Shown in pieces: positions 21,848 to 39,538 of a stretch of 57,977 nt of DNA. Numbering within the stretch: the first letter of the stretch is position 1; every line of letters starts with the position of its first letter. The position numbers were made by a program, and so were the translations under genes. Source of the stretch: an uncultured Bacilli bacterium (GTDB lineage Bacteria > Bacillota_I > Bacilli_A > RF39 > UBA660); contig CANROU010000007.1 in the NCBI GenBank assembly GCA_947632325.1, positions 1-57,977 of the forward strand, read 5' to 3'. A model generated the notes under the pieces. It was given only the letters and a program-made list of their open reading frames with translations. It was not told the origin of the DNA and ran no database searches.

Positions 21848-22933
21848 TTAATTATTTCTAGAAATATTTAAAATTATTCCAATACTGGCCATACTTACAA
21901 GTAAAGAAGAACCTCCATAACTTAAGAAAGGTAAAGTTACCCCTGTTACAGGTATTAATCCCACAACTACCATTAAATTCATAACGGTCTGAAATAAAAT
22001 TTGAAAAACCATCCCAAAGGCCAAGTATTTGGCAAATAGATTTTTAGCGTTCAAAGCAATTTTAATGCCTCTATATAATACTATAATAAATAAAGTGCTT
22101 ACGATTATTACTCCTAATATACCAAATTCTTCACTGATAATAGAAAAAATAAAATCTGTTTGAGGCTCTGGCAAATAGAATTGTTTTTGCCTAGAATGTA
22201 AAAATCCCATCCCTAAAATACCTCCAGGACCTATTGCATAAAGAGATTGAATGATTTGAAATCCTGTACCTAAGGGATCTTTCCAAGGATTAATAAAAGA
22301 AGTAATACGATCCATACGATATGGCGCTATTAAAATTAATACTACTACCCCTAATAAACCAACGATACCACTTGCATAGAAAAATTTCATATTCACTCCA
22401 GCAATAAATAACATAGCAATAATACTGGCCACTAACACAATACCCGTTCCTAAATCAGGTTGCAACATTATTAAACCAAAGAAAAGTAAAGTCACGAATA
22501 ATATCGGTAAAACACCTTTTTTAATATTTTTAATAAAACGATTACTACTACTTAAATATTTACTAGCAAAAATAATTAAACCTAATTTAGCAAATTCACT
22601 AGGTTGAATACCAAAGGGTCCTATACCAAACCAACTACGGCTACCATTGCGAACACTACCTATTCCAGGTATTAAAACTAAAATTAAAAGTAAAAGACAA
22701 ACTAATAAAATAATGTTTGCCCTTTGATAATATTTCTTATAATCTATTTTTGCTATTATAAATAATAAAGCGAGTCCTATTATGATAAATAATGATTGTT
22801 GTTTAACATAATGAAAGCTATCATTAAATTTATATTCAGCCCAGATACTAGAAGCCGAATAAATCATTACAAGTCCAAATATTATTAAAATTATTACGGC
22901 GACAAAAAGAACAACATCAAATTTCTTTTTCAT
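21848..22933 (-). CDS. ftsW: SEDS glycosyltransferase FtsW/SpoVE
   Basis: 361 aa, polytopic (about 10 membrane segments). SEDS motifs are present: VMIYSASSIWAEYKF, NGSRSWFGIGPFGIQPSEFAKLGLIIFASKYL, MLQPDLGTGIVL and GVTLPFLSYGGSSLL. It polymerises lipid II into glycan strands together with a class B PBP. Only one SEDS gene lies here, so whether it serves division (FtsW), sporulation (SpoVE) or both with the two linked PBPs cannot be told. It follows mraY by 22 nt. Confidence 0.93.
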   Translation of the reverse strand: MKKKFDVVLFVAVIILIIFGLVMIYSASSIWAEYKFNDSFHYVKQQSLFIIIGLALLFIIAKIDYKKYYQRANIILLVCLLLLILVLIPGIGSVRNGSRSWFGIGPFGIQPSEFAKLGLIIFASKYLSSSNRFIKNIKKGVLPILFVTLLFFGLIMLQPDLGTGIVLVASIIAMLFIAGVNMKFFYASGIVGLLGVVVLILIAPYRMDRITSFINPWKDPLGTGFQIIQSLYAIGPGGILGMGFLHSRQKQFYLPEPQTDFIFSIISEEFGILGVIIVSTLFIIVLYRGIKIALNAKNLFAKYLAFGMVFQILFQTVMNLMVVVGLIPVTGVTLPFLSYGGSSLLVSMASIGIILNISRNN

Positions 22934-22955: not shown

Positions 22956-23936
22956 TTATAACCAGACTCCAAATAATATACCAGCCATAGCTAATAATAA
23001 CCCAATTACCCAAAATAATTTAACTATATCTGGTTCTTTCCATCCTAATTTTTCAAAATGATGATGCAAAGGCGTCATTAAAAATAATTTTCTTTTAAAT
23101 ATATAGAGCCAAGCAACTTGCAAAATGACACTTAAAGTTTCTACCACAAATACTCCTGCGACTACTACTAAGGTTAATTCACGATGAGTCAATATCGCAA
23201 TAGAGGCCATGACTGCTCCTAATGCTAAACTACCAGTATCTCCCATAAATATTTTAGCCGGATAAGCATTAAACACTAAAAAGCCCAATAGTGATCCTAC
23301 TAAAATAAAAGTAAAAATACCCATGTCTTCAAAACCAACCATCAAAGAAATTAAACTAAAAGCTACAAAGGCAATCGCACTAAGTCCTCCAGCTAAGCCA
23401 TCTAAACCATCAGTTAAATTAACAGCATTAGAAGAACCAACGAGCAAAAATAAAATGAACACTCCATAAAACCAACCCATTTCAATATTAATGCCTAAAG
23501 TTCCAACGACCCATGAAGTTTGTCCTCCATTTTTTATATATAAATAGAAAAATAATAGAGCAATTAAAACTTGAGCAAATAATTTTTGATATGTGGTCAA
23601 TCCTTCATTATCATGTTTCTTAATACTTAAAAAATCATCCAAAAAACCGATAATAGCATAACCGATGAATACCATTAAAACAATCAATAAATCTTCTGTT
23701 AAGGTTAATTTTTTGGTAATTAACAAGGCAATCGTCGCTAACAATGTTGGTATAATAAATATTAAACCGCCCATTGTAGGAGTTCCCTCTTTTTTTTGAT
23801 GACTTTCGCCAACAAAAATGCTGATTCTTTGACCTACGTGTAATCTACGCAACAAAGGAATCAAAATTAATCCTAAGAATGCTGAAGATAAAAAGCCAAT
23901 CATCACAGCAAATATTACTTTGGTTAATAATAGCAT
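22956..23936 (-). CDS. mraY: Phospho-MurNAc-pentapeptide transferase MraY
   Basis: 326 aa with about 10 membrane segments. The motifs are KKEGTPTMGGLIFI, the catalytic FLDDFLSIKKHDNEGLTTYQK, NAVNLTDGLDGLAGGL, FMGDTGSLALG and MTPLHHHFEKLGWKE. It makes lipid I at the inner membrane face. It lies directly downstream of the spoVD C-terminal part. murE and murD, often found here, are absent. Confidence 0.97.
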   Translation of the reverse strand: MLLLTKVIFAVMIGFLSSAFLGLILIPLLRRLHVGQRISIFVGESHQKKEGTPTMGGLIFIIPTLLATIALLITKKLTLTEDLLIVLMVFIGYAIIGFLDDFLSIKKHDNEGLTTYQKLFAQVLIALLFFYLYIKNGGQTSWVVGTLGINIEMGWFYGVFILFLLVGSSNAVNLTDGLDGLAGGLSAIAFVAFSLISLMVGFEDMGIFTFILVGSLLGFLVFNAYPAKIFMGDTGSLALGAVMASIAILTHRELTLVVVAGVFVVETLSVILQVAWLYIFKRKLFLMTPLHHHFEKLGWKEPDIVKLFWVIGLLLAMAGILFGVWL

Positions 23937-24024: not shown

Positions 24025-24891
24025 CTAACTACCTAATAACAGGCGAACAGTCGAACCACCGGCAATTCTTGTTTTGGCTTTTGGTGATTGCTCAATCACT
24101 TTATCGCCTTCACCAGAGTACTCTACTTTAAAATTAGTAGATAATAATTCCGTCGCCTCTTTAACATTTTTGGATATAACATTTGGAACTTCATAATAAA
24201 CATCATCATTCCAGCTGTAATCTTTTTCAATAGCCCCTTCTTGTTTAGGAATTTCTAAAGCGTCAATGATATCTAATAAGATTCTTCTAGCTACAGGGGT
24301 AGTAGTATAACTAGATAACATAGCTGTATTTTTGGGATTATCAATAGCAATATATAAAATAGCTTGCGGATTATTAGATGGTACAATACCAACAAAAGAC
24401 ATAATATAATTATTTACTAAATAATGGCCATCCTGAACTTTTTGAGCTGTTCCGGTTTTACCACCAATACGATAACCATCAATATATGCGGCTTTACCTC
24501 CACCTTTAGCTACTACACTTTCCAATGCTCTACGCATAATAGCCGAAGTTTCCTCACTAATGGTATTTCTAAGCAATTTTTTATCTTTACTTTCAATTAT
24601 AGTATTAGTTTGTGGCTCTAAAATATTTTTAACAACATATGGTTGATATAATTTACCACCATTTAATACTGCTGATACAGCGGCAACTTGTTGAATAGGA
24701 GTTACAGATACGCCCTGTCCAAAAGCAGTTGTAGCTAATTCCACTGGTCCTACCTGATCAAGGGAAAAAATAATTCCTTCGCCTTCCCCATTTAAATCAA
24801 TTCCCGTTTTAGAACCAAAACCAAATAAATCTAAATAAGAAAATAATTTTTCTTTTCCTAATAATTGTCCCATTTTAACAAACCCTGGGTT
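24025..24891 (-). CDS. spoVD: SpoVD-type PBP, C-terminal part (interrupted gene)
   Basis: 288 codons including the stop, from the split point onward. It begins within the codon for the second Asn of Ser-Cys-Asn, then PGFVKMGQLLGKEKLF. It carries the KTG motif (IGGKTGTAQKVQ) and a C-terminal PASTA domain (VPNVISKNVKEATELL to STVRLLLG). It lacks the SxxK serine and so is inactive alone. Joining to 36280-37325 across the element gives a 636-aa class B PBP, the length expected of SpoVD. An ATG at 24873 could start a truncated protein but has only a weak AGGG upstream. It precedes mraY, the usual SpoVD position. Confidence 0.9.
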   Translation of the reverse strand, partial: NPGFVKMGQLLGKEKLFSYLDLFGFGSKTGIDLNGEGEGIIFSLDQVGPVELATTAFGQGVSVTPIQQVAAVSAVLNGGKLYQPYVVKNILEPQTNTIIESKDKKLLRNTISEETSAIMRRALESVVAKGGGKAAYIDGYRIGGKTGTAQKVQDGHYLVNNYIMSFVGIVPSNNPQAILYIAIDNPKNTAMLSSYTTTPVARRILLDIIDALEIPKQEGAIEKDYSWNDDVYYEVPNVISKNVKEATELLSTNFKVEYSGEGDKVIEQSPKAKTRIAGGSTVRLLLGS

Positions 24892-24917
24892 TATTTATGG
24901 TAAGCAAGAGATACTTT
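24889..24917 (-). other. Left attachment site (junction element/spoVD 3' part)
   Basis: On the minus strand: AAAGTATCTCTTG (24905-24917), 13 nt, the AA core (24890-24891), then CCCAGGG. The last part, AACCCAGGGTT, is a near-perfect palindrome and belongs to the host gene. Confidence 0.85.
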
Positions 24918-24938
24918 ATTTATAAAAAATTACACTAA

Positions 24939-26564
24939 TTATGATATTATATGGTGATTATGTAAATCAATCTCTATTGTTTGGGAAGGATGATCAAAAT
25001 TAAATATTATATCTAATTTTATATGTTTTCTATCCTCATTAATCTTACTAATTAAAACTTTATCTATAAAAATATTAAAGTATTTACCAATATTATTTCT
25101 AATACTCATTTTATTTTTTAGTTTGGCTTTTATATCTTCAATAATATTATCATTATATGTTGTAGAATTTATTTGTCTTTGTAAATCTTTTAAAGAATTA
25201 CTTAATGTACTTATCTCCTTTTCTATTTTTTCCCTTTTCATTATATATGTATCATCATCAATCAAACCTCTTAATCGCATATCTACAAGTTTATCTTTTA
25301 AATATCTTTGTTCTGTTAATTTATCTTCTATTGTTGATAAATCTATGATTCTACTTTCAGCTATTATTTTTTGATAAGAATTAATAATATTGTTATACAA
25401 TATTTCTTTATTAGTAAATAACTTATCGATAATTCTAACAAATATTTCATCTAGATCTTTTTCATACAGTATAGGTGTCCTACAACCTTTAATACCATGT
25501 CTTAAATATTCGTTACACTGCCACACTGGATTTTCTTTTCTTTTACATGAGGCATATCTTATAAATGTAGTATTATGTTCTTTACAAAATATCTTAGAAG
25601 TATAATTTCTTTTGATTAAATAATTTTCTTTGTTTAAAGCATTTTTATTCCATTTATTATTTCTTTCATTATAAATATCATTAGCCCTATTCCATAATTC
25701 TTCAGATACAATAGCGGGAACATGACCTTTACTGTCTTTATAAATAATCCATTCTTCAGGAGGATTTATTTTCTTTTTATGCGTTTTATAATCTTCCACG
25801 GTACTTAAATTGGCTGTATAATATCCCTTGTATCTATAATTTGTTAACATTTTTTTTAAAGTTGTATTACTAAATATTTTACCTTTTTTCGTGTAATAAC
25901 CATGTTCTGCTAATTTATGAGCAATTTTAGTAAAACCATAGTCTCCTGTAGCATAAAAATTAAAAAGCATTTTAACAATAGGTGCTTCATGTTTGTTAAT
26001 TATCAGTCTCCCTTCTTTTTTATCATAACCCAATAATGAACTACCACCTAATTTTCCATCTTTAATACTCCTTCGTATACCAAATTTAACTCTTTCTGAT
26101 AATTTACGTACCTCATCTTGAGCCATAGAAGCCATTAATGTTAACCTAAACTCACTGTCTGGGAAAATAGTATTAATATTATCTGAAACAAAAAATACTG
26201 CCACACCATATTGCAAAAGTAATTGGGTATATTCAATACTATCAACAGTATTACGGGCAAAACGAGAAACCTCTTTAGTAAGTATCAAATCAATTTTACC
26301 ACTTCGAGCATCTTCAATCATTTCTAAAAATTGTTCCCGTTTATTAACTTGAGTTCCAGAGATACCTTCATCTATATAGCTTTTAATATGAGTCCAATTT
26401 TTAACATTTGAAATTAAATCATTAAAATAGTTTATTTGGTTATCTAAGGAATTTAACTGATCATCTTTATCAGTTGATACACGGCCATAATCAGCTACTT
26501 TTAAAGTCATATCATAAATAGTTTGACCCGTTAATAATTGTTGTCTAGCTTTAAGAATATCCAT
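24939..26564 (-). CDS. Large serine recombinase (SpoIVCA/integrase type)
   Basis: 541 aa. The catalytic N-terminal domain has the nucleophile Ser30 in YGRVSTDKDDQ, then IDEGISGTQVNKREQF, EVSRFARNTVDSIEY and the E-helix region LMASMAQDEVRKLSERVKFG. A recombinase domain follows (LGYDKKEGRLIINKHEAPIV to GYYTKKGKIFSNTTLKKML). Next come a Cys-rich zinc-ribbon region (about 330-380, CKEH, ASCKRK, WQC, KGC) and a coiled coil (about 410-470). This is the enzyme class that excises skin and integrates many phages. The gene sits 48 nt from the left core, the usual place for an integrase next to its att site. GGAGGAGG precedes the ATG. Confidence 0.95.
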   Translation of the reverse strand: MDILKARQQLLTGQTIYDMTLKVADYGRVSTDKDDQLNSLDNQINYFNDLISNVKNWTHIKSYIDEGISGTQVNKREQFLEMIEDARSGKIDLILTKEVSRFARNTVDSIEYTQLLLQYGVAVFFVSDNINTIFPDSEFRLTLMASMAQDEVRKLSERVKFGIRRSIKDGKLGGSSLLGYDKKEGRLIINKHEAPIVKMLFNFYATGDYGFTKIAHKLAEHGYYTKKGKIFSNTTLKKMLTNYRYKGYYTANLSTVEDYKTHKKKINPPEEWIIYKDSKGHVPAIVSEELWNRANDIYNERNNKWNKNALNKENYLIKRNYTSKIFCKEHNTTFIRYASCKRKENPVWQCNEYLRHGIKGCRTPILYEKDLDEIFVRIIDKLFTNKEILYNNIINSYQKIIAESRIIDLSTIEDKLTEQRYLKDKLVDMRLRGLIDDDTYIMKREKIEKEISTLSNSLKDLQRQINSTTYNDNIIEDIKAKLKNKMSIRNNIGKYFNIFIDKVLISKINEDRKHIKLDIIFNFDHPSQTIEIDLHNHHIIS

Positions 26565-26585
26565 CTATTTTCCTCCTCCAATTAA

Positions 26586-26780
26586 TTAATCTTGTTTACG
26601 GCCTATAACGATTTTATTCATCTTCTCTAATAACATCTTTTGCATACTATCAAAAACGTCAAATGGTATAATATTATCTTCATATAATTCTTTATTTAAA
26701 AGAATCCTTAAATTCAATATTTGATAATCTTTAGGTAATTTTTTAACATTAGTATATATTGGCTCATTAATAGATATCAA
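26586..26780 (-). CDS. Small SHOCT-like protein upstream of the recombinase
   Basis: 64 codons starting with TTG: a perfect AAGGAGG lies 6 nt upstream and no ATG is available, so the ribosome site decides the start. The C-terminal half (LLNKELYEDNIIPFDVFDSM, then QKMLLEKMNKI) resembles the short SHOCT helical hairpin. It ends 21 nt before the recombinase start and is surely co-transcribed. It could be an accessory factor of recombination; a directionality factor is only a guess based on position and size. Possible promoter: minus-strand TATAAT at 26846-26851 with a poor -35. Confidence 0.65.
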   Translation of the reverse strand: MISINEPIYTNVKKLPKDYQILNLRILLNKELYEDNIIPFDVFDSMQKMLLEKMNKIVIGRKQD

Positions 26781-26871
26781 AACTTACCTCCTTAATTAAC
26801 CATATTAAAGAGTAATATAAAAAAGAACTTAAAATAATTGACAAAATTATATACTACAAAAAATATTGAAT

Positions 26872-26927
26872 AAAAAAATTAACAGCAAATAGAAACTTTA
26901 TCCTTTTTGTAACTATTTGCTGTTAAT
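26872..26927 (-). terminator. Terminator of the 1906-aa surface protein gene
   Basis: The minus-strand stem TTAACAGCAAATAG pairs with CTATTTGCTGTTAA over a loop of about 20 nt and is followed by TTTTTTT. It separates the surface genes from the recombinase pair. Confidence 0.8.
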
Positions 26928-26986
26928 AACTAATTTATATTATTATCCTTATTTTTAATTATATAAACATTTCAAGTATGTAATTA

Positions 26987-29900
26987 CTAGCCCGTAACAC
27001 CTGGCTCTATACCATCATAGGTTAAATACTCGCTAGGTGATAATATTTTGATATTGAAAATATTATCTACTCCATCAGCAAAAGCATAATCACTCTTTAG
27101 CTGAACTGCAATTTTTACCGTTTTTCCTGCCGTTGTATTGGTTTTAATAGATACTATTAAGGCAACATCACCCAAGAAGTTACCTGTAGGCTTTCTTGAA
27201 ACAATACCCATTGAATACAATACATTACCTGCAAATGTTACTAGTTCTCCTGAACCCATGCTTGTAACCGAAGAATCTACCGAAGCTACATAAGTCATAT
27301 CAGCATTATCTTTCAAAATATCTATCTTCTCGATCTGCGGATTTTTTCCAAAATAAGTAGTTAAACTTTCTTTCATACCTGTTCCTCCAGATCCATTAGG
27401 AGGTTTTTTGCCAAAAAAGCAAGCTTCATTACTAAATACACAAGCTACGGCAACATCTGCATCGCCACTATCATAAGTACCTCTTATTTCGTGACCGTTT
27501 CTTTTTATCTTATAATGCTTTTTACCCGAATTATTGATAGGTACTATCCCAGTATCAGCCATACTATCCAACATACTTTGAGTAATGACATAGTCACTAA
27601 TATAATGTAGCCTATATGTAGTACTTGTTGTATTATCTGTAGTAGTTACTGTAGTTGGATCAAAATTAATAGTTATGTTTATATATTTCTCATATAATGA
27701 ACTTAAATTTTTACCCGAAACATCATCCGCCTTAGTAACTGACTTTATAAATTCTACAACTTGATTATCTACATTAGCACTATTATCTATTGTAAAAGTA
27801 TTTTTATCGTTTGTTTCTAGTATGACACTATTAACTTTGACATCATCATTATCTAAAATACTTTTTATTTTAGAACTATCCACTTCATTTATGATAGAAT
27901 TGTTAACTTTTTTCATATCAACTGTGTATTTATATTTATAATTATTATCCGGTGAATCAGTAGTTAAGGTTACATCATCTCTAGTATTAGTCATTTTAGC
28001 TTTAAAATATTCATCAGGAATAACTTGTATATTATTATACATGGCTGTTAAAGTAATATCTTTAGTTAAAGTAATCGAATCATTTTTTTGATAATCTTTT
28101 TCACCATCAGTCCAGTTAGTAAACACGTATTTATAATAAGCTGGTGAATTAGTATTTGTTGGATTTTCTTCGTCTATAGTAACTGTTGGATTATCGCCCC
28201 ACTGTGCTGTTAGGGTGAACGTTTCTCCAGCAGTAATAGTTAAGTTACCTAAATTAACGTTAGCATCATATTCTTCACCATTAAACAGCCATTTCTTAAA
28301 TTCAATTGGTGCTGGTTGTACAAAATTTTCTTGACCATTATTAAAATCGTAAATCAAATTGTAGGCTTTAGTAAATGCTTCGTTACTCAAAGTTTTATTT
28401 TCACCATCAAATTCTACTTCCATAGTGATTGTCCCATTGCCATTTTTATCTTTACCACCATTACCATCAAATACTACATAATATTTAATTGGTGTCCAAT
28501 GAGCTGTTAGGTTAAGTTCTTGAGAAATATCATTTAAACTTTCTATTTGTCTACTTTCATCATACCATCCAGCAAAAGTATAACCTTCTCTACTTACTTC
28601 TTTCAAAGCTGTAGTTTCTTCTTTTATTTGCCAAGTTGCTGTAAGCTCGACAGTACCTTGATCTATTAAATTAGTAACAGAATATCCATCAGTAAAGTTT
28701 TGGCCATTATATTCCCAATCCTTGAATTCATATTCTACTGTTTGCTCACTACTATTACCTGTTTTATCATTATCATTATAAGTTACTTTATATTTCCTTT
28801 CAAACTTATTATCAGCTAACTTACATGGTTTATCATATGTACAAGTTGTAACATCCATACTACCTGATGTTTTATTTCCACCATTATATTTTATAGTATA
28901 TGTATTAGCTTCCCATACAGCATACAAGTTAATAGTGCCGCCATTTTCGTTGGTTAAATTATTGGCATCTGTTATACAATCTGTACATTTTTCAACTGCT
29001 TCTTCATGTTGTTCCTTACTCCATCCTTGGAATGTATAACCAACTTTAGTAAATTTATTCTCCTCTAATTCCTTTACGTCATCATAAATATATGTATTAC
29101 TATATGGTGCACCTTCGCCACCATTGGCATTATATATTATCGTATATTTAATTGGTGTCCAATGAGCTGTTAGGTTAAGTTCTTGAGAAATATCATTTAA
29201 ACTGTCTACTAAACTTTCTACTTCACCACTTTCATCATACCATCCAGCAAAAGTATAACCTTCTCTACTGACTTCTTTCAAAGCAGCTGTTTCTTCTTTT
29301 ACTTGCCAAGTTGCTGTAAGCTCGACAGTACCTTGATCTATTAAATTAGTAACAGAATATCCATCAGTAAAGTTTTGGCCATTATATTCCCAATCCTTGA
29401 ATTCATATTCTACTGTTTGCTCACTACTATTACCTGTTTTATCATTATCATTATAAGTTACTTTATATTTCCTTTCAAACTTATTATCAGCTAACTTACA
29501 TGGTTTATCATATGTACAAGTTGTAACATCCATACTACCTGATGTTTTATTTCCACCATTATATTTTATGGTATATGTATTAGCTTCCCAAACAGCATAA
29601 ACCGTTATTTCTCCAGTATTATTATAATAGTTTTTATTCTTAGTAATTATTTCATTAGAAGTGGCAGATTTAGACCATCCTTTAAAGTGATAACCAACTT
29701 TAGTAAATTTATTCTCCTCTAATTCCTTTACGTCATCATAAGTATATGTATTACTATATGGTGCACCTTCACCACCATTGGCATTATATATTATCGTATA
29801 TTTAACTGGTGTCCAATGAGCTGTTAGGTTAAGTTCTTGAGAAATATCATTTAAACTGTCTACTAAACTTTCTACTTCACCACTTTCATCATACCATCCA

Positions 29901-32707
29901 GCAAAAGTATAACCTTCTCTACTGACTTCTTTCAAAGCAGCTGTTTCTTCTTTTACTTGCCAAGTTGCTGTAAGCTCGACAGTACCTTGATCTATTAAAT
30001 TAGTAACAGAATATCCATCAGTAAAGTTTTGGCCATTATATTCCCAATCCTTGAATTCATATTCTACTGTTTGCTCACTACTATTACCTGTTTTATCATT
30101 ATCATTATAAGTTACTTTATATTTCCTTTCAAACTTATTATCAGCCAACTTACATGGTTTATCATATGTACAAGTTGTAACATCCATATCTCCAGATGTT
30201 TTACTTCCGCCATTATATTTTACGGTATATGTATTAGCTTTCCATTTTGCATACAAATGTAAAGAACCATCTGGCATTTTATTTTCTTCAAAATTCCACT
30301 TTGTTTCTTTGTTTTCATTATCTTTGTAATACCAAGCATCAAAAGTATATCCTCTTTTAGTTGGTGTTTCGATTGGACTGATAAGTGATCCAACTTCTTG
30401 ACCAGCGATATCGTATTGATCTTCATTATTTTCAAACAAACCACCATTAGCATCGAATGTTACAGTATTTTTATGAATAATCCATTTAGCATACAAAGTA
30501 ATATCAGCCGCTGGCATTCTATTTTCAGCAAAATTCCATTTAATTTCATTATTGTCATTATCTTTGTAATACCAAGCATCAAAATTATGCCCTGTTCTAG
30601 TTGGCTCATTTGGTTCATCAATTAACTTATCAAATAAAACCGACTTATCTTTTACTTTTGAACCGCCTTTGCTGTTAAAAGAGACAGTATAAGAATGGCG
30701 TTTTATTTGAGCTATTAAAGTTTGATTTTCATCAGCAGTCATAGTGTAAGTAATGGTATTAGTTTCTTCATTATTTGACCACTTTACAAAATCAAATCCG
30801 TCTTTGACTACTACATTTATAGTAACTTTTTGTTCATAATAATAACTTCCACCTTCACTAATTTGATCAATTCCTTCCAAATCAGCAGGATCTAGTATAT
30901 TTTCAAATAAAATATTTAATGTTAATTTCTGTCTTGGATAATAATATTTTAATTTAGTAGATCCATCTGGTTCTATTATTAAATCAGTTATAGCTACTTC
31001 CTTATCATTCTTATCTTTCAAAATAGGCGTATAAAAACCAGATATTACTTTTGGATTATAATTAATTGGTTGGGCTGTTGTACCGGTTTTTATTTCAGTA
31101 AGATCCTCATCCTGTACATATTTTTCCCCAGTAACATCCATAAAATAATATTCTATAGTGTATTTAGTATCTTCGTTAGGCTTAAAAGTGGCTTCGACAT
31201 TTAAAGCACCATATGTGCCTTGTTTTATTGTACCATTAGATGGTTGATTATTTACTAACCATCCAGTAAAAGTATAACCAACTTTACTAGGAGACCCTAA
31301 ATCAAAATCAGCTGATTCAACCGTATATTTCTCTATTTTATTATCTAAAGTCCCACCATTTAAATTATAAGTTATTGTATAAGTATTTACACTAGTAAAA
31401 GCTTTTACCGTTTCATTTTTTGCTCCCATGATATGAACATATTCATCATCAGTTTGATTATTTGACCAATGATCAAATGTATATCCATTCTTAACATTGG
31501 CTTTTACATTTACTTCTGCTTCAAAATAATAATCACCAGAACCTTCGACTGAAGCAATACCTTTATCAGCTTCTAATTTTAAAGCGTACTTATTTCTTTG
31601 ATAATAATATTTGACAACAGTTGAACCATCTCCATTTATGCTGACAGTTTCGCTTTCTGGAGAGGTAAATCCTACAAATTCTTTTACTAACGGTGTTATG
31701 AGAGTATCTGTAGTTCCCATTTGCTCTTCTACAATAGGATCTAAATAACTATCACCATCAACACTCATCTTATAATGCTCTACTAAATATTTGGTATCAT
31801 CATTAGCTATACTATTAACTTTAATGGTTACATCGCTATCTGGCATTGTATATATATCGTTAGAAACATATTCACTATAATTAGCGAATGAGTAACCTGC
31901 CTTTAGTAAATAAGAAACATTTACTTCATCATTATAAAAGTAAGAACCTGAACCAAAAGTTTTTTCAATACCATTATCCCCAACAACAGTTAAGGTATAT
32001 TGATTAATAACATAATAATATTTAATAACAGTATTACCATTACTATTAATAATTACTTTTTGTTCATTAGGTGTGGTATAACCTCTATAATTTTTAGTTT
32101 GAGCCTTCGCATAACTTCCAGCTTGACCACTTAATATTTCTACCTCATCAGCGCTAGCATTATAATTACCATCTTTATTCATTAAATAATGTTCCACACG
32201 ATAATTAGCAACTATTCTTGTCCATCTGGCTGTTAATTTAACATTAGACGAAATCTTACTATTAAAATCAAATTTTTCATTACCTAAATACCAACCACTA
32301 AAAATATAATTTTCTCGTGTTGGATCAGCAGGAGCATTAACTTGTTCCTTATATTTTACATTTACGTTTGTAATACCACCCATGCCATCATCAAAGGTGA
32401 TTTGATATGTATTTTTAACAAATTTTGCCTTTAGTTTAAGATCTTTAGTAATTAATGTGTCATCGTCAAATTTTTTATCATTTATATACCATCCTAAAAA
32501 AGTATATCCTTCTTTTTTAGGATCTGGAGGTAATTGTATTTTAGTATTTTTTGAAACTGTAGTAGATTGAAATTTTTCTCCATCCACATAAAGCGTAACT
32601 TGATAATTCCTACGGCCACAAGATACTAAACACAATATAGTAATTATAATTATAACAATTAAAGCAATTATATAATTTTTTTTATTATTATATTTACTAG
32701 GTTTCAT
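26987..32707 (-). CDS. Giant InlB-repeat (Listeria-Bacteroides repeat) surface lipoprotein
   Basis: 1906 aa. The N-terminal hydrophobic segment (12-28) ends in a lipobox-like LVSC (Cys30), so it is probably lipid-anchored outside the cell. Many InlB B-repeat/Flg_new modules follow, recognisable by YTVTFDANGG...GYTFDAWY...LTARW patterns, mixed with MucBP-like modules (VEHYLMNKDGNY, TKYTIEYYFMD). Residues from about 800 to 1410 contain three nearly identical copies of one block. The last about 350 residues are unique and unrecognised. There is no LPXTG motif. It is probably a surface adhesin or interaction protein, by family. Its ribosome site AAGGGGGG contains six G. Confidence 0.88.
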   Translation of the reverse strand: MKPSKYNNKKNYIIALIVIIIITILCLVSCGRRNYQVTLYVDGEKFQSTTVSKNTKIQLPPDPKKEGYTFLGWYINDKKFDDDTLITKDLKLKAKFVKNTYQITFDDGMGGITNVNVKYKEQVNAPADPTRENYIFSGWYLGNEKFDFNSKISSNVKLTARWTRIVANYRVEHYLMNKDGNYNASADEVEILSGQAGSYAKAQTKNYRGYTTPNEQKVIINSNGNTVIKYYYVINQYTLTVVGDNGIEKTFGSGSYFYNDEVNVSYLLKAGYSFANYSEYVSNDIYTMPDSDVTIKVNSIANDDTKYLVEHYKMSVDGDSYLDPIVEEQMGTTDTLITPLVKEFVGFTSPESETVSINGDGSTVVKYYYQRNKYALKLEADKGIASVEGSGDYYFEAEVNVKANVKNGYTFDHWSNNQTDDEYVHIMGAKNETVKAFTSVNTYTITYNLNGGTLDNKIEKYTVESADFDLGSPSKVGYTFTGWLVNNQPSNGTIKQGTYGALNVEATFKPNEDTKYTIEYYFMDVTGEKYVQDEDLTEIKTGTTAQPINYNPKVISGFYTPILKDKNDKEVAITDLIIEPDGSTKLKYYYPRQKLTLNILFENILDPADLEGIDQISEGGSYYYEQKVTINVVVKDGFDFVKWSNNEETNTITYTMTADENQTLIAQIKRHSYTVSFNSKGGSKVKDKSVLFDKLIDEPNEPTRTGHNFDAWYYKDNDNNEIKWNFAENRMPAADITLYAKWIIHKNTVTFDANGGLFENNEDQYDIAGQEVGSLISPIETPTKRGYTFDAWYYKDNENKETKWNFEENKMPDGSLHLYAKWKANTYTVKYNGGSKTSGDMDVTTCTYDKPCKLADNKFERKYKVTYNDNDKTGNSSEQTVEYEFKDWEYNGQNFTDGYSVTNLIDQGTVELTATWQVKEETAALKEVSREGYTFAGWYDESGEVESLVDSLNDISQELNLTAHWTPVKYTIIYNANGGEGAPYSNTYTYDDVKELEENKFTKVGYHFKGWSKSATSNEIITKNKNYYNNTGEITVYAVWEANTYTIKYNGGNKTSGSMDVTTCTYDKPCKLADNKFERKYKVTYNDNDKTGNSSEQTVEYEFKDWEYNGQNFTDGYSVTNLIDQGTVELTATWQVKEETAALKEVSREGYTFAGWYDESGEVESLVDSLNDISQELNLTAHWTPIKYTIIYNANGGEGAPYSNTYIYDDVKELEENKFTKVGYTFQGWSKEQHEEAVEKCTDCITDANNLTNENGGTINLYAVWEANTYTIKYNGGNKTSGSMDVTTCTYDKPCKLADNKFERKYKVTYNDNDKTGNSSEQTVEYEFKDWEYNGQNFTDGYSVTNLIDQGTVELTATWQIKEETTALKEVSREGYTFAGWYDESRQIESLNDISQELNLTAHWTPIKYYVVFDGNGGKDKNGNGTITMEVEFDGENKTLSNEAFTKAYNLIYDFNNGQENFVQPAPIEFKKWLFNGEEYDANVNLGNLTITAGETFTLTAQWGDNPTVTIDEENPTNTNSPAYYKYVFTNWTDGEKDYQKNDSITLTKDITLTAMYNNIQVIPDEYFKAKMTNTRDDVTLTTDSPDNNYKYKYTVDMKKVNNSIINEVDSSKIKSILDNDDVKVNSVILETNDKNTFTIDNSANVDNQVVEFIKSVTKADDVSGKNLSSLYEKYINITINFDPTTVTTTDNTTSTTYRLHYISDYVITQSMLDSMADTGIVPINNSGKKHYKIKRNGHEIRGTYDSGDADVAVACVFSNEACFFGKKPPNGSGGTGMKESLTTYFGKNPQIEKIDILKDNADMTYVASVDSSVTSMGSGELVTFAGNVLYSMGIVSRKPTGNFLGDVALIVSIKTNTTAGKTVKIAVQLKSDYAFADGVDNIFNIKILSPSEYLTYDGIEPGVTG
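28491..30240 (-). repeat. Three long near-identical repeats inside the InlB-repeat gene
   Basis: A block of about 420-433 bp occurs at 28491-28911, 29154-29586 and 29808-30240. The periods are 663 and 654 bp, with partly similar spacers. The copies differ at few positions by eye, plus a 12-bp deletion in the first. They encode the stretch from KYNGGNKTSGSMDVTTCTYD to EVSREGYTFAGWYDES. High DNA identity implies recent duplication or gene conversion and allows copy-number change. Confidence 0.9.
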
Positions 32708-32749
32708 ATTATGCCCCCCTTGTTTTATGTATAATGTTAAATAATGGTT

Positions 32750-32784
32750 AAAAAGCTCGTTTCATTTTTGGAAACGAGCCTTTA
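32750..32784 (-). terminator. Terminator between the 719-aa and 1906-aa genes
   Basis: The minus-strand stem GGCTCGTTTC / GAAACGAGC is followed by TTTTT, 55 nt after the 719-aa gene. The remaining 43 nt before the next start hold only weak promoter-like DNA (TATACAT), so the 1906-aa gene may depend on read-through or on a promoter I cannot define. Confidence 0.75.
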
Positions 32785-32838
32785 ACTACCAATTATTTCT
32801 TTTATATTAATGTTTACAAACTCGCATTCTAGAGAAAT

Positions 32839-34998
32839 TTAACCAATAAATTTTACGGTATAAGTAACTGGAGTAGCTTTTCCATCAATTGTATATGTTA
32901 CGTCCGCTGTAGCAATTTGTCCTATTACTTTTTCAAGTGTTAAGTCATTTGTATTGCTTACATCTTCTCCAACCATAAGTGATAATAATTGAAGTGCATA
33001 TGAAACTCCTTGTTCAGGATCAATTTCTTTAATGTTGATATCTTCTTTTCCATCAACATGGAATACTGCACTAGTTGCTCCTACAACATATTTTTGGAAT
33101 AATGGAATAACATCATCTTTAAAATCCTTTAATAGGGCATCTTTATTTTCTACTGCAAAAGTTACTGTATGATCTTCTTTAGAATAAGTAACTGACTTAA
33201 TTCCTTTACTTTTTACAAGATTTTCTAATTCACCAGCAGCTTTTTCTAAATCTTCATCTTTTGTTTCTACACTATATACAAACTTTACAGTATAAGTAAC
33301 TGGAATTTCTTCTCCATTAATTGTATATGTTACATCTGCCGTAGCAACTTTTCCTGCTACTTTTTCAAGTGTTAAGTCATTTGTATTGCTTACATCTTCT
33401 CCAACCATAAGTGATAATAGTTGAAGGGCATATGAAGCTCCTTGTTCAGGATCAATTTCTTCAATGTTGATATCTTCTTGTCCATTAACATGGAATACTG
33501 CACTAGTTGCTCCTACAACATATTTTTGGAATAATGGAAGAACATCATCTTTGAAGCTCTTTAATTGAGCACTTAAATCACCAATATCAAAAATAGCTGT
33601 ACGATTTTCTTTAGAATAAGTAACTGATTTAATTCCTTTGTCTTTTACAAGATTTTCTAAATCATGAGCAGCCTTTTCTAAATCTTCATCTTTTGTTTCT
33701 ACACTATATACAAACTTTACAGTATAAGTAACTGGAATTTCTTCTCCATTAATTGTATATGTTACATCTGCCGTAGCAACTTTTCCTGCTACTTTTTCAA
33801 GTGTTAAGTCATTTGTATTGCTTACATCTTCTCCAACCATAAGTGATAATAGTTGAAGGGCATATGAAGCTCCTTGTTCAGGATCAATTTCTTCAATGTT
33901 GATATCTTCTTGTCCATTAACATGGAATACTGCACTAGTTGCTCCTACAACATATTTTTGGAATAATGGAAGAACATCATCTTTGAAGCTCTTTAATTGA
34001 GCACTTAAATCACCAATATCAAAAATAGCTGTACGATTTTCTTTAGAATAAGTAACTGATTTAATTCCTTTGTCTTTTACAAGTTTTGCTAATTCACTAG
34101 CAGCTTTTTCTAAATCATTATCTTTAGTTTCTACATTATATACAAAGTGTAATGTATATTCTACACTATGTGTTCCATATTCGTCTTTATAGTATACTGT
34201 AGCTGTTGTGCTCTTACCAGCTACATCCAAATATGTTAAGTCAACTTTTTCACTTTCACCCACTAGAGATTGCAATACTTCTAAAGCAAGAGCTGCTACC
34301 GTATCATCATCTGTTAAGTCTCTTGGATATTTTTTAACTGATTCTCCATTTACAGTATATTCAATATACTCAAAACCATAATCACCACTAACGATATCTT
34401 TAAACATAGCAATAATACCGCTATCTTTATAATCTTTTAATAGCCTATTTAAATCATTAATATCAAAAGTTAATGTATGATTTTCATAGCTAATACTGTT
34501 AAATCCATAATCTGCAGCTTCACTATTTAACTGTTCTTTATCCTTTTGAAGTTGATCCTCTACATCAGCTGTTATATCATTTACTAAATTATAATTAATA
34601 TAATGTACACTTACTTCTTGATTTAAATCAGCAAATTTTTTATCTTCATTACCTACCTTAGGTTGAACAATTGACCAAGGGCTAAATCCCCCACTACCTT
34701 TTGTTCTTGTAAGATGCTGTACAACCATTTCTTGGAATACAGGATCAGCGTCTGTTCTACCTGTTTTATCAACAACTTGAATAGATCTAGATGCTAACAT
34801 AACATCTTCTGATTTTAATGTGTGATTTGTTGTAAAAGCATAATCACCCACGATATATACATCTCGAGCGCTTGAATCATATTTGTCTACTTCTTCTAAT
34901 AGTTCTGTTAAAGTAACTTTTTCTTTAGCAAAAGCAACTAGAGTTGTTGCAAAGAATGTCACTACAGCAAACATTAAAAATTTTCCATATTTTTTCAT
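32839..34998 (-). CDS. Secreted protein with 144-residue tandem repeats
   Basis: 719 aa. A clear signal peptide (KYGKFLMFAVVTFFATTLVAFA) is followed by four repeat modules. The last three have a 144-aa period: DLEKAA..L..LVKDKGIKSV, TYSKENRTAIFDIGDLSAQL, KSFKDDVLPLFQKYVVGATS, AVFHVNGQEDINI, QGASYALQLLSLMVGEDVSN, then a strand VTYTINGEEIPVTYTVKFVYS. The first module is diverged. The family is unknown to me. It has no anchor, so it is secreted or held by partners. It starts 16 nt after the upstream gene with a perfect AAGGAGG and is therefore co-transcribed with it. Confidence 0.75.
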   Translation of the reverse strand: MKKYGKFLMFAVVTFFATTLVAFAKEKVTLTELLEEVDKYDSSARDVYIVGDYAFTTNHTLKSEDVMLASRSIQVVDKTGRTDADPVFQEMVVQHLTRTKGSGGFSPWSIVQPKVGNEDKKFADLNQEVSVHYINYNLVNDITADVEDQLQKDKEQLNSEAADYGFNSISYENHTLTFDINDLNRLLKDYKDSGIIAMFKDIVSGDYGFEYIEYTVNGESVKKYPRDLTDDDTVAALALEVLQSLVGESEKVDLTYLDVAGKSTTATVYYKDEYGTHSVEYTLHFVYNVETKDNDLEKAASELAKLVKDKGIKSVTYSKENRTAIFDIGDLSAQLKSFKDDVLPLFQKYVVGATSAVFHVNGQEDINIEEIDPEQGASYALQLLSLMVGEDVSNTNDLTLEKVAGKVATADVTYTINGEEIPVTYTVKFVYSVETKDEDLEKAAHDLENLVKDKGIKSVTYSKENRTAIFDIGDLSAQLKSFKDDVLPLFQKYVVGATSAVFHVNGQEDINIEEIDPEQGASYALQLLSLMVGEDVSNTNDLTLEKVAGKVATADVTYTINGEEIPVTYTVKFVYSVETKDEDLEKAAGELENLVKSKGIKSVTYSKEDHTVTFAVENKDALLKDFKDDVIPLFQKYVVGATSAVFHVDGKEDINIKEIDPEQGVSYALQLLSLMVGEDVSNTNDLTLEKVIGQIATADVTYTIDGKATPVTYTVKFIG
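33252..34115 (-). repeat. 432-bp tandem repeats in the 719-aa protein gene
   Basis: Two adjacent copies (33252-33683 and 33684-34115) are almost identical over most of their length. A more diverged copy lies on each side. The period is exactly 432 bp, or 144 codons, so gain or loss of a copy keeps the frame. Confidence 0.88.
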
Positions 34999-35014
34999 AT
35001 TTTTCCTCCTTTTT

Positions 35015-35929
35015 TTATACTGTTTCTTCAGTCCAAATTACTGTCGCAGTACCAAGTACTGTTCCACCTCTCATAATAGTTACATAAGATGGTGCTATAC
35101 TACTATCCATAACTTCACCAGGGCCGAAATAATTACCATTTATAACTATATCTGTGTAATCATAAAATGCTGACCCATTTTTATTAACAACTCCTAATTT
35201 ATTCTGGAAGTTTGTGCCAAGTTTCGTAATTCTTTTAACAATTACTATACTATAACTATCTTGTACTGGTTGTGGATTACTTGGTTGTGGATTACTTGGT
35301 TGTTGACTACTTGGTTTATTTGATGATGAATTTTTATTGCTTGATGGTTTATTTGATGCTGTTGTATCATTTGCTTCTTCTTCTTTTTCCTCTTCAACAG
35401 TAATTTCACAACTTGCTTGATGTTTTCCATCTTTGGTCTTAACAGTAATCGTAACCTTTCCGGCTTTCTTAGCTGTTACTTTTCCGTTTTGATCAATGCT
35501 TACAATACTACTATCACTTGATGAATATACAAGTTCAACTGTAACATCACTCGGTTCTAAACTTACTTTGATAGTATCAGACTGACCTACTTTTAAAGTC
35601 ATATTAGCGATAGAAATATCCTGAAGAGCTTTTGACCATCTAGCTTCTAATTTCATATCTTTAGTTATTTTCTTACTAAAATCAAATAACTTACCATTAT
35701 AATACCAGCCAATAAATTCATATCCTTCTCTTGTTGGATCAGTTGGTTTTTTAATTTGACCGTTTTCTTTTACGTGAATTGATTCAACAACATTACCCCC
35801 ATTAGCATCAAAAGTTACCTCATATTCTTTTGATTGACAACCTTTTAACAACAATAATATTATGATAGCTAATAGGATTATACCTACTATCACTCCAATT
35901 ATTGCCTTACGTTTAGTTTTCTTTTCCAT
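35015..35929 (-). CDS. Membrane-anchored surface protein (InlB repeat + BIG2 domain)
   Basis: 304 aa. An N-terminal membrane anchor (about 9-29) is followed by one InlB B-repeat (YEVTFDANGGNVVES to LEARW, about 36-95) and a BIG2 Ig-like domain (LKVGQSDTIKVSLEP, SSDSSIVSIDQNGKVTAKKA, GKVTITVKT; about 105-175). A Ser/Asn/Pro/Gln-rich flexible linker (about 180-220) and an unrecognised C-terminal beta domain complete it. It is the first gene behind the poly-G promoter, with AGGAG 7 nt before the ATG. It is probably an exposed adhesin-like protein, by domain content. Confidence 0.82.
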   Translation of the reverse strand: MEKKTKRKAIIGVIVGIILLAIIILLLLKGCQSKEYEVTFDANGGNVVESIHVKENGQIKKPTDPTREGYEFIGWYYNGKLFDFSKKITKDMKLEARWSKALQDISIANMTLKVGQSDTIKVSLEPSDVTVELVYSSSDSSIVSIDQNGKVTAKKAGKVTITVKTKDGKHQASCEITVEEEKEEEANDTTASNKPSSNKNSSSNKPSSQQPSNPQPSNPQPVQDSYSIVIVKRITKLGTNFQNKLGVVNKNGSAFYDYTDIVINGNYFGPGEVMDSSIAPSYVTIMRGGTVLGTATVIWTEETV

Positions 35930-36141
35930 ACTTCTACTCCTTTCATTCTTATAATTGGGCTTGAATTTTTTATTTGTTTACACTCCTTTCAAAACACAGC
36001 TCATATTACATTATATAGTTGAGATTCTTTTTTTTGACTATTTTCTTATTTTTTAAACATTTTATTGTCTAAAATTAATTTTTTTACTATCTCAATATAT
36101 AAATTCCAATTTTATTTTGTGTGTTTAATTAATTTATTTTT

Positions 36142-36171
36142 ATTATAAAATATACCCCCCCCCCATGTCAA
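36142..36171 (-). promoter_or_regulatory. Putative phase-variable promoter with a G10 spacer tract
   Basis: On the minus strand a perfect -35 TTGACA (36166-36171) and a perfect -10 TATAAT (36142-36147) are separated by 18 nt. The spacer is T, ten consecutive G, then TATATTT. Loss of one G would give the optimal 17 nt; other changes would weaken the promoter. It drives the surface genes at 35929 and below through a leader of about 205 nt. The rest of the 350-bp gap (35930-36279) is AT-rich, with no other clear feature. Confidence 0.8.
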
Positions 36172-36253
36172 CTATTTGCTAAGTTTTTTCCAAAAAAAAA
36201 CAACGATTTACGTTTATATTTTATTTAATTTATTTTATCAATATCTATATAAA

Positions 36254-36281
36254 AAAGTATCTCTTGTTAAAACACCAGATT
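36254..36281 (-). other. Right attachment site (junction spoVD 5' part/element)
   Basis: On the minus strand: ...TCTTGT, the AA core (36280-36281), 13 nt, then CAAGAGATACTTT (36254-36266), the exact reverse complement of the left-end repeat. The junction introduces a stop (TAA) four codons after the split codon begins. Confidence 0.85.
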
Positions 36282-37325
36282 ACAAGAGTTTTCTAATACT
36301 TGTAGGAAGGTTTGATGTCCATGTCCTCCTGCTTTCCAACATTTAATTCGAGCATTTTCAACTTGTACAGAACCACTGTCATCAAAAGTATCTTTGTCTA
36401 AATCAATTAGCTTCTCCTCCACAGTAGCCGCAGTTGTAATAATCTTGAAAGTGGAACCCGGTTCATAACTAGCCCATATTGGTAAATTCCTGGATAAAAC
36501 ATTCATACTATATTTTTGATATTTATTAGGATCATAATTTGGTCTACTACTCATTCCTAAAATTTCGCCATTATTAGGATCAATTACAACAGCTAAAGCC
36601 ATGTCAGGTTTAAACATATCTACCACATTATCCAGTTCTCTTTCAATAGATTGTTGGATATGATAATCAATTGTAAGCTGTAAGTTCATTCCATCTTGAG
36701 GTTCTATATAAACTTCTGACATATTCAACTGATTACCTTTAGCATCTGAAAAATATTTAATAGCGCCAGATTCACCTGTTAAATATTTATCATACTGTAA
36801 CTCTAAACCCGATAGTCCTTGATTATCGATACCGACATATCCTAATACATGTGATAAATCTTCACCAAAGGGATAATAACGTTTAGATTCCTTAACTAAA
36901 TAGACACCCGGTAAATTCAAAACACTAATCTTATCGGCAACCTCGTATGATAGGCGTCTACCTTCAGGATGTACACGTTCAATAGATGTCACTTTATTAA
37001 CATGCTTGGCCATCTCTTCTTCACTTACATTTAAAATTTCCGCTAATAATTTAATAGTTTTATCTTTATCAGTAATTTGATTAGGAATAAGCACTAAACT
37101 AGTCGTCGTTAAATTATCAGCTAGAACAACTCCATTACGATCTAAAATCAAACCCCTATTAGCTTCAATAGGCAAATCTCTACTCCATAAATCTTTGGCT
37201 AATTTCGATAACTTACTATAATCAAACACCTGAACATAAAAAACCCTTAATACTATTAAAATAAATAACAAAACAATGATACACAAAACGACTTTTATTC
37301 TGGTATCTATCTTTTTAACAAACAT
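36280..37325 (-). CDS. spoVD: SpoVD-type PBP, N-terminal part (interrupted gene)
   Basis: 349 codons up to the split; reading on into the element adds Leu-Val-Phe and a stop at 36267. The N-terminal membrane anchor (about 11-31) is followed by the PBP dimerisation domain and the start of the transpeptidase domain. The active-site SxxK is in EPGSTFKIITTA, and the split falls in the SxN motif (ENSCN). SpoVD is the class B PBP that makes spore cortex with SpoVE. I assign SpoVD rather than a second FtsI because it follows pbpB and precedes mraY, as in other spore formers, and has the PASTA tail. Without excision the product lacks the KTG motif and should be inactive. Confidence 0.9.
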
Positions 37326-37372: not shown

Positions 37373-39538
37373 TTAATTAACATTATATTTAGGTTGTAGT
37401 GATAAAGTAATTTCCATTTCTTTACTTAATAGCGTTCCAATTGGTACACTTTGATTAACAACATACCCATTACCTTCAAAATGGCAGGTTAAGCCTAATA
37501 AATCACAATATGTTTTCGCATCTTTAGCGGAATAACCAAGTAAATTTTCCATGTTTATACTAGAGCCATTAGTTACTAAAAAGACTCTATCTTTAGATGT
37601 TATTTGTTGATTTTTATAAGGATACTGTTTGATAACTTTATTACCATTACCAATAACAACAGTATGAACACCCTGGTTATTAAGTTCATTTACAGCAACA
37701 TCTATATTTTTATTAATATAAGATGGTATCTTAGTTACCACAATATTTTCATGAGCACTTTGAGCTTCACTTTTTCCTAAATATTTGCTAATATTTACAA
37801 TTACTTCTTTAACAGCTTTTTGAATAGGTCGTTGACTACCTCCATCTGGTCTTTTCATAGACGCATAAATAATAATTTCAGGATTATCCATAGGATAAAT
37901 ACCAGCGAAAGAGGAGATAATATCTTCATCACCTGTTAGATAACCTTTACCACTTTCATCTGCAATTTGAGCTGTTCCGGTTTTACCAATTAATTGATAA
38001 CCATCCAAATGATAACTATATCCTGTGTTACCTGGGCCATTTACAGTATCATTCATCAATTGCTTTATCTTATTTACCGTATTCTCACTAGCTACAGTAT
38101 CTATTTCTTTACGTTTTCCTTCATAAATCACTTCATTAGTAGTAGGATCGACTATCTTTTCAACAATATAAGGTTTTAATAAAACACCATTATTAGTAAG
38201 AGATGTTAAAGCTTGAATATTTTGAATAGGTGTCGTTGTAATACCTTGACCGAAACCAGCGTTTAATATCTCCGTTTCATAAGTAAAATTAAGCGACCCT
38301 TTAGCTTCTTGAGGTAATGTGATACCTGTTTTAGCTCCAAAGCCCATTTTCTTAAAATATTGATACAATATTTTTTGATTAAGTTTTTTGGTAATCAAAT
38401 TCACTACTCCTACATTACTAGATAAAGCAAAGCCCTTATCGTAAGTAATGACACCCCAACCATTTCTATTCCAGTCACCAATAACCGTACCATCAGTAGT
38501 CGTATACGTTCCTGATAAAAAAGTTTCATCACCATTATAATTACCATTTTCTAATGTAGCCATATAAGTATAAATTTTCATCGTACTACCTGGCTCATAG
38601 GTAAAAGAAATGTTAGGATCTAAGTAATTAGTTAAATTACGGAGATTAGGATCAAATGATGGAGAGGAAGCCGAAGCTAATATTTTTCCTGTTTTAGCAT
38701 CCGCTACTAACATGGTAAACCAATCAAATCCAGTGGAATCTTCAGCATTCTTCATACTTTGTTCGACGAAAAATTGAATATTACTATCAATGGTTAGATA
38801 AATATCCTTACCACTAATAGCATCTTGCCTTACCTCTTTAGTCCCCGCTATTTTATAACCCTTCAAATCTTTTTGATAAGTTAGGGAACCATCAGTTCCT
38901 TTTAAAGTATCATCATAATATTTTTCTAACCCTAACTCACCTGTGATAATTTCTTTTTGATCTTCATCATCACTAATAGTAGATTTAGCATAACCCAAGG
39001 TATATGATAAATAATCACCATTAGGATAATAACGTTTTTGTTTTTCTACAAAATCAATACCTGGTAGTTGTAATTGATCAATCTTTTCTTTGGTTATTTC
39101 AGTCAAACCCTTACCCTTAGCTCCAAATTCTGTTTGGTATACGCCTTCTTTAGATAACAAAGTTAAAATTTCTTCTTCACTCATTTGTAATATAGGCGCT
39201 AAACTAGTAGCCGTTTTTTCTTTATCGACGACATGTTGTGGATGATCATCATCTTCTGTTCTAGAAGGATCTAAATAAGCAATAATATCATAAGATGAAA
39301 CATTTTGAGCCAAAACTTCTTTGTCAGATGTGTAAATAGTACCTCTAGTAGCTGGTAGAACCTCAGTTTTAGTAGTTCTTTTACTAGCTAACTCTTTGAG
39401 ATTTACTCCATCAATATTTTTAAATAAGGCTAACATAGACAATCTAGCGATCATTACAACAAACAAAAAAAAGCCACCTATTAAAACTAGTCGATTTATT
39501 TTAATACTATTGCGTTTTTTTGGCTTTTTCTTTTTCAC
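37373..39538 (-). CDS. pbpB: Division class B penicillin-binding protein (PBP2B/FtsI)
   Basis: 721 aa, intact. The anchor is at about residues 14-34, followed by the dimerisation domain. The transpeptidase domain has SxxK in YEPGSTMKIYTY, SxN in ALSSNVGVVNL and KTG in LIGKTGTAQIADE. Two PASTA-like regions close it (ITKIPSYINKNIDVAVNELN; MENLLGYSAKDAKTYCDLLG). It cross-links septal peptidoglycan with FtsW. It lies between ftsL and spoVD in the conserved order. Confidence 0.94.
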   Translation of the reverse strand: MKKKKPKKRNSIKINRLVLIGGFFLFVVMIARLSMLALFKNIDGVNLKELASKRTTKTEVLPATRGTIYTSDKEVLAQNVSSYDIIAYLDPSRTEDDDHPQHVVDKEKTATSLAPILQMSEEEILTLLSKEGVYQTEFGAKGKGLTEITKEKIDQLQLPGIDFVEKQKRYYPNGDYLSYTLGYAKSTISDDEDQKEIITGELGLEKYYDDTLKGTDGSLTYQKDLKGYKIAGTKEVRQDAISGKDIYLTIDSNIQFFVEQSMKNAEDSTGFDWFTMLVADAKTGKILASASSPSFDPNLRNLTNYLDPNISFTYEPGSTMKIYTYMATLENGNYNGDETFLSGTYTTTDGTVIGDWNRNGWGVITYDKGFALSSNVGVVNLITKKLNQKILYQYFKKMGFGAKTGITLPQEAKGSLNFTYETEILNAGFGQGITTTPIQNIQALTSLTNNGVLLKPYIVEKIVDPTTNEVIYEGKRKEIDTVASENTVNKIKQLMNDTVNGPGNTGYSYHLDGYQLIGKTGTAQIADESGKGYLTGDEDIISSFAGIYPMDNPEIIIYASMKRPDGGSQRPIQKAVKEVIVNISKYLGKSEAQSAHENIVVTKIPSYINKNIDVAVNELNNQGVHTVVIGNGNKVIKQYPYKNQQITSKDRVFLVTNGSSINMENLLGYSAKDAKTYCDLLGLTCHFEGNGYVVNQSVPIGTLLSKEMEITLSLQPKYNVN

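Follow-up and report, generated by a model that had tools for sequence, protein, structure and literature searches.

The window analyzed here is the whole 57,977-nt stretch of contig CANROU010000007.1 from an uncultured member of the Bacilli, and on its minus strand the sporulation gene spoVD is present as two open pieces (36280-37325 and 24025-24891) which flank an intervening element of 11,388 bp (24892-36279; one copy of the AA core is counted to the exons). The 5′ exon (36280-37325) comprises codons 1-348 and the AA of codon 349, the Asn of the SxN motif, and matches positions 3-349 of the SpoVD family profile TIGR02214 with 369 bits. The 3′ exon (24025-24891) supplies the remainder of the transpeptidase with its KTG motif and the PASTA region (Pfam transpeptidase and PASTA domains), matches profile positions 352-635 with 320 bits, and lacks its own start codon where it meets the element. 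The open reading frame (ORF) of the N-terminal part runs from 37325 to 36267, with homology stopping at the AA at 36281-36280 (GAAAACTCTTGTAA before the junction, TCTGG after it); the C-terminal frame is open from 24891 to 24025 and begins with the AA at 24891-24890 (ATAAA before the junction, CCCAGGG after it). This AA is common to both junctions, and joining the pieces there in silico gives 636 stop-free codons that read ENSCNPGFVKMGQ. Against TIGR02214, whose curated cut-off is 688 bits, the joined product reaches 716.9; each piece alone falls short, and by this measure only the joined protein belongs to SpoVD.

SpoVD functions in spore cortex synthesis, as established for B. subtilis. The first-pass annotation of this DNA had described a spoVD gene split at SxN by an element of ~11.4 kb with a shared AA and a 636-codon join, which proved correct to the base, and its view that a serine-recombinase element was inserted here, with the frame restored on precise excision, is borne out by the junctions, the recombinase domains described below and the TIGR02214 score. 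An intact second spoVD, which it had named as a point that would speak against excision, was looked for and is not found among the PF00905 matches of the source genome (~94% complete), and the uninterrupted site that it proposed to seek in relatives is present in a genome of the same genus (G128, 87% identical). The locus carries features of a skin-type intervening element: the coding sequence of a sporulation gene is split and otherwise intact, joining of the element ends restores the reading frame in silico, and the element encodes its own site-specific recombinase.

The two ends of the element hold inverted arms, AAGTATCTCTTG and CAAGAGATACTT, around the AA core, which is the arrangement expected for the attP site of a large serine recombinase. 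In the attL region (36253-36300, minus strand) the exon end is followed by the AA core (36281-36280) and the element arm TCTGGTGTTTTAACAAGAGATACTTTT, inverted relative to the arm at the other end; in the attR region (24880-24917, minus strand), as read from the sequence, the element arm AAAGTATCTCTTGCTTACCATAAAT precedes the AA core (24891-24890) and the start of the exon. Directly upstream of the 3′ exon is the gene for a large serine recombinase of 541 aa (24939-26564, minus strand), in which the Resolvase N domain, Recombinase domain and zinc ribbon characteristic of these enzymes are all recognized (Pfam Resolvase, Recombinase, Zn_ribbon_recom). An assignment to CcrAB or CcrC was rejected, as the equivalog cut-offs are not reached (CcrB, 121 of 900 bits), and against the XisF model the enzyme scores 96 bits where the cut-off is 375. 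Upstream of it lies a gene with a TTG start (26586-26780, minus strand) for a 64-aa protein that AlphaFold2 predicts to form two helices (mean pLDDT, the predicted local distance difference test, 84), and which has no match in Pfam. A small ORF is present just upstream of nearly every related recombinase, and by elimination the 64-aa protein is the best candidate for the recombination directionality factor. The idea that it mimics the coiled coil of the recombinase was unsupported (score 39 versus a shuffled mean of 35).

The cargo, all on the minus strand, consists of a 1906-aa surface protein with Listeria-Bacteroides (InlB B) repeats (26987-32707; Pfam Flg_new in ten stretches), a 719-aa repeat protein with no family above cut-off (32839-34998), and a 304-aa surface protein in which Pfam recognizes an InlB-type repeat and a Big_2 domain (35015-35929). 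A phage origin was considered and set aside, the Pfam matches of the cargo being to surface repeats, and none of the viral contigs scanned with the recombinase patterns matched. Before the cargo surface genes, TTGACA and TATAAT are separated by an 18-nt spacer holding a run of ten G (36142-36171, minus strand), a putative promoter that could be phase-variable by slippage. Whole spoVD elements among relatives range from 2.7 to 15.5 kb, the smallest (2.7-3.0 kb) consisting of little beyond the small ORF and the recombinase with a single unit of cargo; in the minimal elements at L141, L245 and L249 the cargo includes two small ORFs that by eye have a RelB/RelE-type toxin-antitoxin look.

The split recurs across the family. 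A survey covered 141 genomes of this family, almost every one from a different genus; in manual counts from the resulting table, spoVD is intact in 78 of them and site-specifically split in 31. Ten more genes broken at contig ends were treated as assembly breaks and left unscored. The hosts of the split genes are uncultured gut Bacilli, including Candidatus Onthousia and Candidatus Faecimonas, and the relatives, for which the first-pass annotation had allowed that the disruptions might be unrelated, carry the same kind of site-specific insertion. With few exceptions the splits fall in one of four conserved motifs: SxxK (site A, with the break after TTTAA and before the A, in the lysine codon), SxN (site B, that of the window), TPIQQ (site C) and, more rarely, FGQG (site D). 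Among the collected loci the AA core of site B lies at the same codon in 40/40 N-side and 60/60 C-side junctions, and all 25 same-locus joins are in frame; at site A the same codon is struck in 8/8 N-side and 14/14 C-side junctions, with the catalytic SxxK restored in 7/7 joins. Chance is excluded, because the AA core sits at one codon in all site-B junctions and every join is in frame. As any such precise excision restores a frame, these counts speak for site-specific integration and not for regulation. Several genes carry more than one element: spoVD of G056 is broken at A, B and C, and so lies in four pieces, and recombinases adjoin two of these breaks, A and B; G238 and G333 each hold A and B elements on a single contig, and G050 combines B and C. 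At two loci (L143 in G220 and L129 in G252) the site-B element has its recombinase inverted and adjoining the 5′ exon. At three others (L094, L146 and L147, in G051, G269 and G166) hosts from three genera with clearly different spoVD genes carry recombinases that show no difference over the stretch compared, which, judged from the sequences, is recent horizontal transfer.

The minus-strand gene order in the window is an FtsI-type penicillin-binding protein (37373-39538), the spoVD 5′ exon, the element, the spoVD 3′ exon, an ORF taken for mraY and named from its position (22956-23936), and an FtsW/SpoVE protein (21848-22933); spoVD thus occupies the position usual for it within the cluster of division and cell-wall genes. 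Of the sporulation genes that the first-pass annotation listed elsewhere in the window, sigG (5359-6135) and yunB (4239-5015) stand, and the ORF taken for cotE (42246-42788) has no NCBIfam match, leaving that name unconfirmed. The neighboring FtsI serves as an internal control, as it shares the fold and motifs of SpoVD and is similar in length, but has its role in growth. FtsI is full length in 125 genomes and gives six partial matches, most of them at contig ends; the partial match of G048 is part of a 795-codon open frame and was scored as a whole gene, and the one in G093 was assigned neither way. None of the 126 scored FtsI genes is site-specifically split, in comparison to 31 of 109 scorable spoVD genes (p = 3e-12).

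The exons of the split genes stay open and appear to be maintained under strong purifying selection. With a codon model, the ratio of nonsynonymous to synonymous substitution rates (dN/dS) is 0.006-0.05 in close split-intact pairs and 0.002-0.02 in split-split pairs, values like those of intact pairs; the codon model was used as NG86 estimates saturate in these AT-rich genomes, and since dS is saturated in most pairs under the codon model as well, only the few close pairs carry weight. The conservation of the exons may partly be older than the insertions. In one locus of the window's genus (L285, in G235) spoVD is interrupted at site A and a deletion in the 3′ exon shifts the frame near codon 540. 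A match to SpoIVA is found in 31/31 split genomes and in 6/22 genomes without spoVD (p = 5e-9); loss of spoVD is accompanied by loss of SpoIVA, and splitting of spoVD is not.

Related recombinases also adjoin other genes. Some lie beside a dacB-like gene at SxxK, before ORFs that by eye resemble spmA and spmB, and others adjoin a dacF-like gene at SxN, both names resting on context and similarity with no curated cut-off. The spoIVA gene (loci L290-L309 and L119) is split near codon 121 in several genomes by a different recombinase family (24-26% identical), and near codon 400 in G081 by a relative of the window's enzyme; in G030 a split is also seen near codon 26, in the Walker A region. Related elements in inverted orientation split a gene for an NMT1/THI5-like substrate-binding protein at about codons 106, 150 and 205 (loci L189-L203, L166-L176 and L259-L283), of which an intact copy is present at L192 (G000:C11). 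In a tree of 131 recombinases the target labels need 27 changes versus 74 in shuffles, with site A, dacB and dacF requiring one change each and the rest falling largely to rows without a visible target; by this sequence tree, each target site has its own recombinase clade.

Upstream of the two-gene operon of small ORF and recombinase, the promoter-like arrangement GTTCTTTTTT-N-TAATAT (26802-26828, minus strand) is the sole match in the window, where 0.01 would be expected, and is conserved in related elements, GTTCTTTTTT standing ~15 nt before the -10-like box. A role of GTTCTTTTTT as a regulator site was considered and dropped, as it forms the right arm of a terminator hairpin in most elements. 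This hairpin ends only ~40 nt before the small ORF (e.g., L066, L073, L178 and L181), so that terminator and promoter seem to overlap. In site-A elements and in one site-B subclade the -10 box reads CATACACT or CATAAAAT, both sigma-E-type sequences, and the host spoIVA has a similar box of its own, CATAAATT, 13 nt after TCATATT. Boxes of the CATACA type are found upstream of recombinases 10 times versus 2.6 in shuffles, yet 15 times on the reverse strand, and the promoter evidence therefore holds clade-wise only. The sigma-E-like boxes are no more than suggestive of sporulation control.

Site-specific insertion, precise restorability, a separate recombinase clade for each target site, recurrence across the family and intact exons are likely best explained by mobile elements which, in the manner of skin, excise precisely from spoVD and other cell-wall genes during sporulation. 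The core module would be the 64-aa helical protein together with the large serine recombinase, which would insert the element into the SxN codons through the 2-bp AA core between the inverted arms; recombination of the element ends would then release it precisely and restore SpoVD. We infer, by analogy with skinCd of C. difficile and gin of B. cereus, that this occurs in vivo, in the mother cell at sporulation, with the small protein acting as directionality factor so that recombinase and small protein together reverse integration. The mother cell would then produce SpoVD as the forespore retains the split copy. As SpoVD acts in cortex synthesis, the element should cost little in growth, and as the mother cell dies, the copy passed on through the spore remains split. 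Developmental excision, which the first-pass annotation had proposed, was strengthened by the comparison across relatives, since sporulation genes, unlike FtsI, are targets of several recombinase clades, the exons are open and conserved, SpoIVA is retained, and a sigma-E-like -10 box is present in two clades. These bacteria probably restore spore genes through DNA excision at each sporulation.

Several results weigh against this reading. No circular attP junction of two element types was found in 386 assemblies, a weak negative; the -10 of the window's own element is TAATAT; and canonical sporulation or housekeeping promoters upstream of the recombinases show no excess over shuffles. Open-frame defects occur in three among ~165 exons (G235, G239 and L224), and identical recombinases in different genera imply that many insertions are young, which weakens the argument from conservation. 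The split NMT1/THI5-like transporter gene has no known sporulation role, and the enzyme group is therefore not bound to sporulation. A rival explanation is plain selfish insertion, in which recombinases of this group land at conserved motif codons of dispensable genes, spoVD is inactivated, excision is rare and non-developmental, and split lineages form spores poorly and end up purged or cured. The horizontal transfer of near-identical elements, the struck transporter gene, the cargo of minimal elements that looks by eye like toxin-antitoxin pairs and the same-genus genome with a frameshifted split spoVD are all consistent with it, but inactivation is hard to reconcile with SpoIVA retained in 31/31 split genomes, very few exon defects, low dN/dS, and a diverse and old recombinase clade residing at one spoVD codon. 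This explanation is considered unlikely, though it is the most serious of the alternatives.

Stochastic switching, by which some cells, independently of development, would lose and regain the element and only a subpopulation would be capable of sporulation, has a parallel in the yin element of C. botulinum yabG, which is excised at all time points (PMC10747680), and the two inverted site-B elements indicate that rearrangement is possible; with sigma-E-like -10 boxes in some clades and the attP form absent from the assemblies searched, it is improbable. Separate translation of the pieces into a working split SpoVD would agree with both being open frames, but is barely credible, as the break falls inside the transpeptidase fold, the unspliced N piece at site A reads STFN and not the catalytic STFK in some genomes, and the four-piece gene of G056 would require four subunits. 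That all genomes are apparently metagenome assemblies might raise the concern of an assembly or binning artefact, for which there is next to no room: the two junctions in the window are carried by a single contig of 58 kb, and junctions of the same kind turn up across many species sampled in several studies, often with the two ends together on a contig.

A wider version of developmental excision, to which equal credence is given either way, is that a whole family keeps its spore-wall genes in pieces. Compact elements, each with its own motif-specific recombinase, would occupy conserved catalytic codons of spoVD (up to four exons), dacB, dacF and spoIVA; a mother cell would need to excise several of them, in a timed manner, ahead of cortex synthesis, and sporulation would hinge on these events. 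Intervening elements have so far been single cases in single genes, whereas in this one lineage more than a quarter of the species with a scorable spoVD are affected, at several sites per gene, along with at least three other spore genes. If excision is confirmed, the family would provide a clear example of bacterial genes interrupted by several introns at the DNA level, and of the way in which mobile elements can come to occupy positions that are important in a terminal cell type alone. For gut Bacilli of the RF39 group, a survey found the presence of spoVD reduced in predicted spore-formers (PMC10868615), part of which split spoVD genes may explain. The compact recombinases with defined att sites are also candidate genome-engineering tools.

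In cyanobacteria the fdxN element is excised by XisF, a recombinase of the same broad family, restoring a split gene in a terminal cell type; there the cells are heterocysts and not spores, and the window recombinase is far below the XisF cut-off. The closest parallel is skinCd in C. difficile sigK, with recombinase CD1231, the small directionality factor CD1234 that excision requires, 19 genes and proven excision (PMC5025042). In both elements the gene of a large serine recombinase sits immediately before the 3′ exon of the interrupted sporulation gene, a small accessory protein is encoded, and precise joining restores the gene. The window element lies in the gene of a cortex enzyme rather than in sigK, and its excision is inferred. 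The gin element of B. cereus gerE (GirC, GirX) is 28.6 kb, with three recombinases and a small ORF needed for excision (PMC5595907), and is likewise a non-phage serine-recombinase element with a small ORF that splits a sporulation gene; its target gene is different, and elements in the surveyed family go down to 2.7 kb. Serine-recombinase excision of the SP-beta prophage reconstitutes the spore gene spsM in B. subtilis (PMC4191935), but SP-beta is an active prophage and no phage genes are seen in the window element. The yin element, also an intervening element in a sporulation gene, is prophage-like and from a single isolate (PMC10747680), in contrast to the dozens of species and several sites found here. 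Integration of a mobile element into spoVD itself has a precedent in ICEBs1 of B. subtilis, for which the gene is a secondary site used in the laboratory, with undetectable excision and no claimed role in sporulation (PMC3715440), and the element is of another kind. No literature linking spoVD with an intervening element was found, preprints and most subscription papers being outside the search. The kind of element is known; what appears to be new is the set of targets, the occurrence of several elements within one gene, the minimal size and how frequent the elements are.

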